IMG/VR virus record: IMGVR_UViG_3300031227_006990
Location: 1 to 30,689 of that record
Length of the DNA: 30,689 nt
Source of the DNA: a virus
Strand: one strand, 5' to 3'
Every line of letters starts with the position of its first letter. Positions within the stretch are counted from its first letter, which is position 1. A program made the translations under genes and the position numbers. A model generated the notes under the pieces. The model was not told where the DNA came from and did not search any database. It saw only the letters and a list, made by a program, of their open reading frames with translations. Of the stretch, positions 1,827-15,957 are shown in pieces.

Positions 1827-2153
1827 ATGAAGTGTTTATGTGGGTATGATGATGATTTTGAAGGACAACACATATGTTTACGGTGTAAATATTATAATCA
1901 ATCTATGATTATGAATGAAAAATCATATTGTGAGAAAATGAAGGGGTGGTTTTTTACTGGTGATAACTGTGAAAATTATATTTATATGAATTTTGACGAA
2001 CAACTTGGGAAGTTTAAAATAAAAAGAATGTTAGTGAGAATAGAGGATGCTATTCCTCCAATAACTGGTCCTTGTGATGAACCGTTATTAGAAAATCAAA
2101 TATTTTACATATGTCCTAAATGTGGAACCGTTAGATTTGAGGAGAAAGAATGA
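1827..2153 (+). CDS. Zinc-ribbon protein, paralogue of the previous gene
   Basis: The longer frame opens at 1770 within the previous gene, but GAGGAG and the MKCLCGYDD start put ATG at 1827 (108 residues). Cys pairs occur near residues 3-5, 17-20 and 34, and in the C-terminal I-C-P-K-C-G-T-V-R-F-E-E-K-E, which copies the end of the protein encoded at 1622. The middle is longer than in the paralogue and carries extra Cys. Function unknown; structural zinc is inferred. The end again contains GAGGAGAAAGA, followed by an overlapping ATGA that opens only a six-codon frame. Confidence 0.78.
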   Translation: MKCLCGYDDDFEGQHICLRCKYYNQSMIMNEKSYCEKMKGWFFTGDNCENYIYMNFDEQLGKFKIKRMLVRIEDAIPPITGPCDEPLLENQIFYICPKCGTVRFEEKE

Positions 2154-2170
2154 AAGCATTAACCTCGTGA
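2150..2170 (+). other. Six-codon micro-ORF (MKALTS), leader or gene remnant
   Basis: An ATG overlaps the previous stop (ATGA, 2150-2153) behind a good GAGGAG. The frame encodes only MKALTS before TGA 2168-2170. The same junction after the gene at 1622 leads to a real paralogue, so this may be the 5' remnant of a deleted gene or a short translated leader ahead of the RNA region. Confidence 0.35.
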
Positions 2171-2240
2171 GCACTATTTCTTTTATTATTCAATAAGTTA
2201 ATTAAACCTTGCGAGCTTCTGATTACATAACCTTGTGATG
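2161..2240. repeat. Three degenerate 12-bp direct repeats
   Basis: AACCTCGTGAGC (2161-2172), AACCTTGCGAGC (2205-2216) and AACCTTGTGATG (2229-2240) share AACCTYGYGA. The core CTYGYGAG is nearly palindromic. They lie just upstream of the promoter at 2267-2294, which would suit operator sites. Spacings of 44 and 24 bases are irregular in helical phase, so this is tentative. Confidence 0.4.
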
Positions 2241-2266: not shown

Positions 2267-2294
2267 TTGCCTGTTTACAAATATGTGGTATTAT
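2267..2294 (+). promoter_or_regulatory. Extended -10 promoter for the small RNA
   Basis: TTGCCT (2267-2272), 16-base spacer and TATTAT (2289-2294) with an upstream TG at 2286-2287 form an extended -10 promoter. The predicted start is about 2301, exactly where the first long helix of the downstream RNA begins, which mutually supports both calls. Confidence 0.6.
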
Positions 2295-2299
2295 GTTGG

Positions 2300-2440
2300 T
2301 TCTTTCCAAGATAATTTAGCAGATTATGAAAGCAAAACAGAGAGAGCCCGAGTTGGTAGAGTAGATGCAAGATACCCTTGGTGCTTATTGCTTTGGCTAA
2401 ATCTTGGAAAGACATCGAAATACCAACTTGGGCTTTTTTA
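2300..2440 (+). ncRNA. Probable ~140-nt RNA with two interleaved long helices (pseudoknot topology)
   Basis: Helix 1: 2301-2310 pairs with 2403-2412 and 2314-2320 with 2396-2402 (17 bp, 3-base bulge 2311-2313). Within it AAAGCAA 2329-2335 pairs with TTGCTTT 2388-2394. Helix 2: AGCCCGAGTTGGTA 2345-2358 pairs with TACCAACTTGGGCT 2421-2434 (14 bp, one G-U), extendable outward to 2341/2438 with two more G-U, and ends in six T (2434-2439). The 5' arm of helix 2 lies inside helix 1 and its 3' arm outside, so the helices cross. Both can form at once because they use different bases. Promoter and T-run fit a free-standing transcript. No plausible plus-strand protein lies here. The class is not one I recognise. 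Confidence 0.7.
2341..2440 (+). terminator. Intrinsic-terminator-like end of the small RNA
   Basis: The 3' arm TACCAACTTGGGCT is followed directly by T-rich sequence (2434-2439), as in an intrinsic terminator. The loop between the arms is about 62 bases, far longer than usual, and contains the 3' arm of helix 1. Formation of helix 1 would bring the arms closer, so termination could depend on that fold. Confidence 0.45.
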
Positions 2441-2448
2441 TGCCTAAA

Positions 2449-2723
2449 ATTATTGAGTTTGGCGCATCGCACCTCGGCTCAATAAACGTAAAAGATAGAG
2501 TGGGGAATGTAGCGCAATCTTTAGGTACTTGTTAAGCAGAGGCCGAGCTACTGGAGAAAAAGACTTCTTCATTAAGCAGTTGCTATCTCAGACAGTCTAA
2601 TTTGATCTGAGGGCTCATGAACGAAGAATGGCTCCGAAGGGGTTAGAATGGGCATCAAGATTATTCCATTTTTTTGGAATTAATCCTTGGTGCCCAAAAA
2701 CTCTGACTTCACCAAAGGGGTTA
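2449..2723 (+). ncRNA. Hairpin-rich non-coding region, possible second or extended structured RNA
   Basis: No credible gene is present. Stems seen: TTATTGAG 2450-2457 with CTCAATAA 2478-2485; AAAGAT 2491-2496 with ATCTTT 2517-2522; GGAGAA 2553-2558 with TTCTTC 2565-2570; CTCAGA 2587-2592 with TCTGAG 2606-2611; and a long hairpin with 2650-2659 pairing to 2686-2695, then AUUA/UAAU and UUCC/GGAA around an eight-base loop, extended outside by GGTTAGA 2641-2647 with TCTGACT 2702-2708. CTCGGC 2473-2478 can also pair with GCCGAG 2542-2547. All wobble pairs are G-U on the plus strand. AAGGGGTTA is repeated at 2637-2645 and 2715-2723. About half of 2461-2520 is G or C, against roughly a fifth near 2900. 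Ends are not defined. Confidence 0.5.
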
Positions 2724-2940
2724 AGCAATATACATATAACGTTATTACTTATTGAATTTATTGTTAGTTAAATGAGGTGATAGTGGTAGAACTATGAAGA
2801 TGCTTACTATTAGTAGGATATAGGTATAGTAAATAGGTATACTAGTCACATTATTGGTATAGTTTTAAGCAAATTATATCTAAACAAACCATCATATAAC
2901 CTATATAATATGATCTTCTAATAACAGTGTAGATTAAAAT
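2724..2940. other. AT-rich intergenic stretch with GGTATA repeats and a weak promoter
   Basis: No gene is supported here. GGTATA occurs three times (around 2823-2861). TAAACA 2881-2886 and TATAAT 2904-2909, spaced by 17 bases, could be the promoter for the gene at 2941. The -10 box is consensus, the -35 is weak. Confidence 0.35.
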
Positions 2941-11814: not shown

Positions 11815-12093
11815 ATGATCGAGAGAGATCTTTTTAATTTATGGTTACAAAACGATGTTACCAAAGAAGTCTTCAGACTTATCGAACGTCGTCGTGATGA
11901 ACTTCGCGATCTAATCCATTCCTCTTCAGAAATGAGCAATCCAGCCTATACAAAAAACATGTGTTGTTGGGTTGGAAGACATCTCGAACTCAATGATTTA
12001 TTTAATATTGAATTTGATGATTTTAATGAATTAGTGGATGAAATAGAAATTAATGAGAATGAAGAGGAGAATGAAAATGTCATCAAAATGTAA
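11815..12093 (+). CDS. Small virion-module protein of unknown function
   Basis: The 92-residue protein contains L-W-L-Q-N-D-V-T-K-E-V-F-R-L-I-E-R-R-R-D-E-L, then G-R-H-L-E-L-N-D-L, and an acidic end. Proteins of this size and pattern often sit just after the portal gene in phages, from memory, with unknown role. AAGGAT precedes ATG. It overlaps the GroES-like gene by 17 bases and its acidic codons form that gene's ribosome site. Confidence 0.75.
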   Translation: MIERDLFNLWLQNDVTKEVFRLIERRRDELRDLIHSSSEMSNPAYTKNMCCWVGRHLELNDLFNIEFDDFNELVDEIEINENEEENENVIKM

Positions 12094-12430
12094 GCTAGTT
12101 CCTATTTTGCATAGAGTTCTTATAAAAGCAGATAAAGACAAAGAGGGTAAGGTTGGAAGATTTATTATGCCTAAAGATTCAAGTGATCAAAAATTAAAAG
12201 GATTCTCTAGTGGAGAGATCATTGATATTGGTCCGCTTGCTTTTAATTTCCCTGATTTAGAAAATACTGTCCTACCTAAAATAGGGGATAGAGTACATTT
12301 CGTTAAATATGCTGGTGTAACATTAGCAGAAAAAGGCGGCTATTCTGTTGATAATAATGAAGAAAATGAAGAATCACAATACAGAATAGTTAATGATGAA
12401 GATATTTTAGCAATTGAAATGACGGAGTAA
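12077..12430 (+). CDS. GroES-like (Cpn10-fold) protein
   Basis: AGAGGAG at 12063-12069 selects ATG 12077 over upstream ATGs, giving 117 residues. It has L-H-R-V-L-I-K-A-D (about 10-18), G-E-I-I-D-I-G-P (about 46-53), K-I-G-D-R-V-H-F (about 69-76) and D-E-D-I-L-A-I-E at the end, matching the GroES layout (HDRVIVK, GEVLAVG, VGDIVIF, ESDILAIV). The GroES mobile-loop region is replaced by K-D-S-S-D-Q-K. It may help capsid protein folding with host GroEL, as T4 gp31 does; that role is inference. It stands between portal and scaffold genes. Confidence 0.75.
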   Translation: MSSKCKLVPILHRVLIKADKDKEGKVGRFIMPKDSSDQKLKGFSSGEIIDIGPLAFNFPDLENTVLPKIGDRVHFVKYAGVTLAEKGGYSVDNNEENEESQYRIVNDEDILAIEMTE

Positions 12431-14151: not shown

Positions 14152-14727
14152 ATGGCAAATGTTGATTCAATTTTTGGCGCACGTCTAGTTAATTCTGTAG
14201 GTGGTTATGTTCCGCAGACAATGACATGTATTGTCACTGCTGCGGTAGATGCGACTACAGATATTTTTCTTGGTGATTTCGTTACTTCTCAGGGTACATC
14301 CTCATTAAGTGGAGATTTAGATATTTATTTAACTTCAGTAGCACAAGCTGCTGCGAGTGATAAAATTTTAGGTTTCGTGACTGGTGTTCAACCAAGTCGC
14401 ACTTATGAAAATCAAATTTATCGTACACAAGCTACGGAACGAGTATTAACTGTTTGTGTTGACCCTTATGCTTTATTTGAAATTCAATGTAGTGGCACGT
14501 TTGCTGTTACAGATTTTGGTAATAACGCTAATATTACAGTTGGTACGGGAAGTACTGTCACTGGTTTATCCGGTATGGAATTAGACCAATCCACTATAAC
14601 AACGACCGAGACCTTACCATTGAAAATTATTGGCATGATTCCTCGTGCTGATAACGAAATGGGAGCTCATGCGAAATTACTTTGTATGATGAACTACTGT
14701 TCATTCAAAGATACAACGGGTCAATAA
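14152..14727 (+). CDS. Head decoration-like protein
   Basis: The 191-residue protein begins MANVDSIFGARLVNSVGGYV and lies directly before the coat gene, a common place for decoration or cement proteins that clamp the capsid lattice. It is rich in Thr, Ser and Val with few charges, beta in character. The N-terminal 185 residues of the protein encoded at 28427 are its paralogue (shared F-G-A-R, G-D-F-V, Y-R-x-A-x-T-x-R, D-P-Y, F-E-x-Q, N-A-N-I-x-x-G). Ribosome site AGGAG lies 8 bases upstream. Decoration is inferred from position and composition. Confidence 0.65.
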   Translation: MANVDSIFGARLVNSVGGYVPQTMTCIVTAAVDATTDIFLGDFVTSQGTSSLSGDLDIYLTSVAQAAASDKILGFVTGVQPSRTYENQIYRTQATERVLTVCVDPYALFEIQCSGTFAVTDFGNNANITVGTGSTVTGLSGMELDQSTITTTETLPLKIIGMIPRADNEMGAHAKLLCMMNYCSFKDTTGQ

Positions 14728-15666: not shown

Positions 15667-15684
15667 ATAGGAACATTAAAATTG

Positions 15685-15762
15685 GGAAGTTGCAGCTGGA
15701 TAAAAAAATAAATAAAGGGAGTAAGTCCCTAATAATTAAAATACGCCATGCTGCAATTTTCC
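15685..15762 (+). promoter_or_regulatory. Two-level hairpin after the coat gene
   Basis: TTGCAGC 15690-15696 pairs with GCTGCAA 15750-15756, extended by GGAA 15685-15688 with TTCC 15759-15762. Inside, AGGGA 15716-15720 pairs with TCCCT 15726-15730. TTTT follows the outer stem. It could be a leaky terminator or mRNA end-protection that sets coat expression above its downstream genes. Confidence 0.5.
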
Positions 15763-15786
15763 TCTTATCATATTTAGGAGAATGAA

Positions 15787-15957
15787 ATGGTTCATAGAAA
15801 ATTGCAATTAAAGTCTCAGCGAACAACTGGAAGAAAATTGGTTAAAACCACTGGTTCGCGACCTTTAAATGCACCAGCAATGAATCTTGAGAAATATGCA
15901 ACAGACAAACAGGAAAAAGAACAGTTGTCATATATCAAGAAAACTAAGAAAAGATAA
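15787..15957 (+). CDS. 56-residue basic protein of unknown function
   Basis: AGGAG at 15776-15780 selects ATG 15787 (MVHRKLQLKSQRTTGRKLVK...). The product is very basic, with Lys/Arg-rich ends and no Cys. It sits between the coat gene and the parS-like palindrome. A DNA-binding or head-completion role is possible but unshown. Confidence 0.7.
   Translation: MVHRKLQLKSQRTTGRKLVKTTGSRPLNAPAMNLEKYATDKQEKEQLSYIKKTKKR

Follow-up and report, generated by a model that had tools for sequence, protein, structure and literature searches.

An intergenic candidate small RNA with two long crossing helices in an uncultured tailed phage

Early in an uncultured tailed phage contig, a non-coding gap contains two long helices whose arms follow each other in pseudoknot order, with a promoter-like site directly before the first helix and a T-run at the end of the second. 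What the sequence shows directly is a pair of helices that cross and are statistically strong, a promoter-like site with repeats upstream of it, and an absence of coding. The explanation we tentatively favor, while giving it slightly less than an even chance, is a structured small RNA of approximately 140 nt that the phage encodes and that is transcribed on its own, extending from position 2299/2301 to approximately 2440.

The window analyzed was the whole contig of 30,689 nt with a G+C content of 36% (IMG/VR record IMGVR_UViG_3300031227_006990), on which genes for terminase, portal, capsid, and head closure are identifiable. The closest terminase relative is 45% identical and the closest portal relative 41%, with isolate phages at about 40% over the portal protein. 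Two further genes were noted: a CsrA homologue is encoded at 142–324 on the minus strand (Pfam PF02599, E 1.5e-23), with a related gene in 84 phage records, and a GroES/Cpn10-like protein, possibly a phage co-chaperonin, is encoded at 12053–12430 on the plus strand adjoining the head genes (Pfam PF00166, E 3e-9). The gap of 787 nt (2154–2940) is located between blocks of small rightward genes, with the last stop of the upstream operon at 2153 and the start of the next gene at 2941. Its plus strand has no open reading frame of at least 60 amino acids, and a 65-amino-acid frame on the minus strand gave no Pfam match. Two short open reading frames of the gap have a Shine-Dalgarno-like motif, and neither overlaps the RNA, while a 12-codon frame lying within it (2326–2364) has no Shine-Dalgarno sequence. 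The RNA is intergenic and no credible frame runs through it; a conserved protein read across the region had been named beforehand as the finding that would speak against an RNA. At the upstream edge of the gap, a six-codon frame (MKALTS; 2150–2170, plus strand) with a good Shine-Dalgarno sequence overlaps the end of the preceding gene.

The coordinates of all features are given in Table 1. In helix A, 12 perfect pairs (2301–2312/2401–2412) are followed across the 3-nt bulge by five more (2316–2320/2396–2400), so that all 17 of 17 pairs are Watson-Crick pairs. Helix B comprises 19 uninterrupted pairs when the plus strand is read, 15 of them Watson-Crick and four G-U; its core is a 14-bp repeat (2345–2358/2421–2434), and the outer five pairs draw on the T-run, which is therefore part of the stem. 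With the arm order A5′-B5′-A3′-B3′ and without a common base, the two helices form a true crossing of the H-type. These results bear out the preliminary description, which had proposed two long helices in pseudoknot order, a second helix ending in a T-run, and wobble pairs of the G-U kind on the plus strand only: no pair would be a wobble solely on the minus strand. Loop L2 also contains alternative partners for both inner arms, namely 2373–2386 for B5′ and 2364–2373 for A3′. The folding energy of the 141-nt RNA corresponds to a z-score of −4.45.

Table 1. Features of the candidate RNA and its surroundings in the non-coding gap (positions in the window)
Feature	Position	Strand	Remarks
Three direct AACCTYGYGA copies, candidate operator sites	2161–2170, 2205–2214, 2229–2238	+	Upstream of promoter-like site
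Sigma-70-type promoter-like site, TTGCCT-16-TATTAT, extended −10 TG (TGGTATTAT)	2267–2294	+	Rank 10 in weight-matrix scan
Helix A, 5′ arm	2301–2320	+	12 bp, AAU bulge, 5 bp; starts at predicted transcription start
Loop L1	2321–2339	+	19 nt, A-rich, without predicted structure of its own
Helix B, 5′ arm	2340–2358	+	19 pairs, 4 of them G-U
Loop L2	2359–2395	+	37 nt; small predicted hairpin, −5.1 kcal/mol alone
Helix A, 3′ arm	2396–2412	+	
Helix B, 3′ arm	2421–2439	+	Runs into T6 (2434–2439); terminator-like end, 62-nt loop
Long, nearly continuous rod hairpin	2628–2733	+	z = −5.44 (2625–2740)
Three direct GGTATASTW copies (at 2823, 2836, 2856)	2823–2864	+	Upstream of promoter-like site 2881–2909
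Second promoter-like site, TAAACA-17-TATAAT	2881–2909	+	Before gene at 2941; 10/12 consensus matches; weight-matrix rank 82

For an estimate of the distance from chance, stems were scored in the contig and in shuffled sequences. Helix B is the top-scoring ungapped stem of the whole 30.7 kb. When the gap was shuffled (n = 300), the best crossing pair reached at most 26.8 for its weaker helix, compared to 28 observed, a value that leaves out the extension across the bulge. Block-wise dinucleotide shuffling of the whole contig (n = 160) yielded no crossing pair at the observed scores (28, 40). Since the score of helix B alone was matched in 4 of these 160 shuffles and crossing pairs with both helices at 28 or above occurred in 11, it is the combination of A and B that is exceptional. 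Other structures on the plus strand were recorded as well. The second-best stem of the contig (688–780; 19 bp with a 55-nt loop) lies between a gene end at 678 and a gene start at 802, a long-range stem with an inner AGGGA/UCCCU hairpin (15684–15762) directly follows the capsid gene, and the most unusual folding energy of the contig (14281–14400; z −5.78) is found within the open reading frame 14152–14727.

Among all sites on both strands, the promoter-like site before helix A is placed 10th by the weight matrix, in a list whose ranks 1 and 3 are two clear intergenic promoters; a consensus scan of the contig showed no excess of promoter-like sites over shuffles. Its predicted start at about 2299–2301 agrees with the earlier proposal that transcription begins at the first helix base. 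The AACCTYGYGA motif has only the three listed matches in the contig (0.10 expected), and three copies were seen in 0 of 100 shuffles. Likewise, GGTATASTW has only three matches (0.78 expected), with three copies in 2 of 100 shuffles. This arrangement suggests that the RNA and the operon at 2941 have separately controlled promoters. Because the operon has a promoter-like site and a repeat triplet of its own, the RNA need not be its leader. At the other end, helix B offers a GC-rich stem and the T6 of an intrinsic terminator but lacks the short loop of 3–8 nt, and a terminator scan with short loops gave no match at the RNA. Loops of 62 nt are rare in intrinsic terminators.

Searches for relatives covered both the RNA and its neighborhood. 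The preliminary description could not place the RNA in a known class, and this held when Rfam covariance models were run (riboswitches, tmRNA, large phage RNAs, 6S, and others): none matched at the gathering threshold or at permissive thresholds, where only sub-threshold chance matches appeared. A tRNA/tmRNA search found none, blastn against phages and plasmids found no relative, and helix-arm pattern scans of viral contigs gave no convincing one. Covariance models R1 and R2, whose power is low because they rest on one sequence, found nothing beyond chance in related loci, 12 related virus records, four genomes with a related terminase, and 398 genomes of one phylum. A DNA search of 274 genomes yielded two matches of 28–43 nt (E 4e-4 and 1e-3 per genome), as expected by chance over 274 genomes. 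Searches with the flanking proteins led to one distant locus (L047), which is without the RNA. Several candidates were discarded: pattern matches L020–L030 have one helix A arm only in common and no matching second arm, L036 and L037 are GC-rich chance matches without the RNA, and L044 (13975–14107), a near-perfect fold-back at the end of a virus contig, is probably an assembly artefact. Crossing stems in relatives were also of no use as evidence, since such pairs are frequent in the many relatives with high G+C. The collections searched may omit near-identical records, so the absence of relatives here is not evidence of absence.

Two nested folds compete with the crossing structure. One combines A with the inner helix B5′/2373–2386 (−34.2 kcal/mol for 2301–2414), the other combines B with the inner helix A3′/2364–2373 (−43.3 kcal/mol). 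In nested ensembles, growing transcripts as far as position 2430 show A (92%) with its inner helix (99%), and B reaches 92–99% once 2434–2441 are present. This shift, together with the second partners available to the B5′ and A3′ arms, argues for a cis-acting attenuator, in which the first fold would form early and sequester B5′, thereby allowing read-through, and B would terminate when the first fold is blocked by a ligand, a protein, or an RNA in trans. Such an element would decide whether transcription that began at 2301, or in the upstream operon, continues through 2441, and the lack of a terminator-like hairpin with a T-run between the stop at 2153 and the RNA fits this. Attenuators and riboswitch expression platforms likewise have a terminator-like helix with an earlier alternative partner for its 5′ arm; here, however, the alternative pairing is no better than random and no regulated gene adjoins. 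Shuffled L2 sequences gave equally stable folds in 154 of 500 cases (31%) for 2299–2416 and in 174 of 500 (35%) for 2299–2441. The inner helices are thus no better than random loops, and they are no evidence of a designed switch. Also, about 500 non-coding bases and the second promoter-like site precede the next gene, and the 12-codon frame has no Shine-Dalgarno sequence, both of which argue against attenuation; we regard it as possible but unlikely. The preliminary suggestion of a switch between two folds retains its competing folds but little of its support, since the loop shuffles led us to downgrade a bistable switch. A and B have no base in common and can coexist, so both could have been kept because both form. 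The energy of the pseudoknot is estimated at about −40 without and about −45 with the small L2 hairpin, versus −43.9 for the best nested fold of 2299–2441, a difference within the error of this rough Dirks-Pierce-type estimate. With the helices side by side, loops of 19, 37, and 8 nt appear sterically feasible.

RNase III-type processing hairpins occur between genes in phage early mRNAs of the T7 type, and long intergenic hairpins recur in the phage studied here. Intergenic DNA makes up about 7% of the contig yet accounts for 5 of the 15 best stems, the top two among them, which makes selection on intergenic stems likely. The long closing stems (688–780, 2340–2439, 15684–15762) might accordingly act as RNase III sites or decay barriers, and the z-scores of −3.95 (676–790), −3.58 (15667–15800), and −5.44 (2625–2740) are consistent with such a role. 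The other stems, however, are closely enclosed by two genes and immediately precede a ribosome-binding site, whereas A/B lies in a 787-nt gap and combines a promoter-like site at the first base with a T-run behind it and a second, crossing helix, and hence we consider hairpins for processing or mRNA stability rather improbable as the explanation. A still smaller probability is assigned to the gap serving as a replication origin or control region at the DNA level, or to A/B being a domain of a larger non-coding RNA of about 430 nt or more over 2301–2740. The length of the non-coding gap, its two direct-repeat triplets, the AT-rich stretch 2741–2940 (25% G+C), and further structure at 2628–2733 would suit either. 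No replication initiator was recognised among the proteins tested, and G-U pairs on one strand only favor RNA over a role of the DNA; regarding a larger RNA, the T6 after helix B favors an end at that point, and the Rfam families of large phage RNAs did not match. Least probable of all is that two unrelated inverted repeats without function lie side by side by chance. That only one sequence is at hand and that the score of helix B recurs in a few contig shuffles would allow it; the complete pairing (17/17 and 19/19), the agreement with promoter and T-run, and the failure of contig shuffles to produce the crossing combination speak against it.

The small-RNA explanation draws on a helix pair stronger than chance yields, the likely selection on intergenic stems, the restriction of G-U wobbles to the plus strand, the rank of the promoter-like site, its predicted start adjacent to helix A, and a repeat triplet specific to this promoter. 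That the RNA is transcribed and terminated, that A and B form at the same time, and that it regulates in trans is our inference, along the following course. A sigma-70 promoter would start the RNA, probably regulated via the three upstream repeats. Helix A would pair the first transcribed bases and so cover the 5′ end; helix B, with T6, would terminate transcription and, as it contains the last bases, cover the 3′ end. Nucleases would thus be kept from both ends. Together, A and B would form an H-type pseudoknot leaving L1 and L2 exposed as likely pairing or binding sites for host or phage partners. The preliminary description had also suggested a host-directed regulatory RNA; within the phage, no arm or loop pairs with translation-start regions better than shuffled controls. 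A CsrB/RsmZ-type sponge for the phage CsrA was considered and rejected, as such sponges carry many GGA motifs in their hairpin loops and the RNA has one GGA only, and this is inside helix A.

Phage-encoded trans-acting small RNAs are a known kind, for which a review gives PreS of lambda (~88 nt), SprY of phi12 (~125 nt), and VpdS of VP882 (~50 nt) as examples and a size range of 20–786 nt (PMC12197685). Like these, the RNA described here is short, intergenic, phage-encoded, and within this range, with a promoter of its own presumed; it has no sequence relation to them, it is without a family, and two crossing helices of 17–19 bp are not described for them in the parts of that review consulted (PMC12197685). 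The same review lists OOP, sar, c4, and IsrK as cis-acting or antisense phage RNAs (PMC12197685), which are likewise small RNAs in phage regulation, but the RNA here has no antisense gene and no target in the contig above shuffled controls. From processing hairpins of the T7 type it differs by the promoter-like site at its first base, the T-run, and the crossing helix. A further possibility, which we regard as doubtful, is that it is the first sequence of a phage RNA class not described before, functional as a very long H-type pseudoknot (17 + 19 bp) locking both ends of an independent transcript.

If expressed, the RNA would enlarge the small set of regulatory RNAs known from phages by a structured member that has no relatives. 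Building a stable small RNA from two crossing, end-locking helices this long would be unusual. Since a CsrA gene is present as well, post-transcriptional control may be a recurring feature of the virus.
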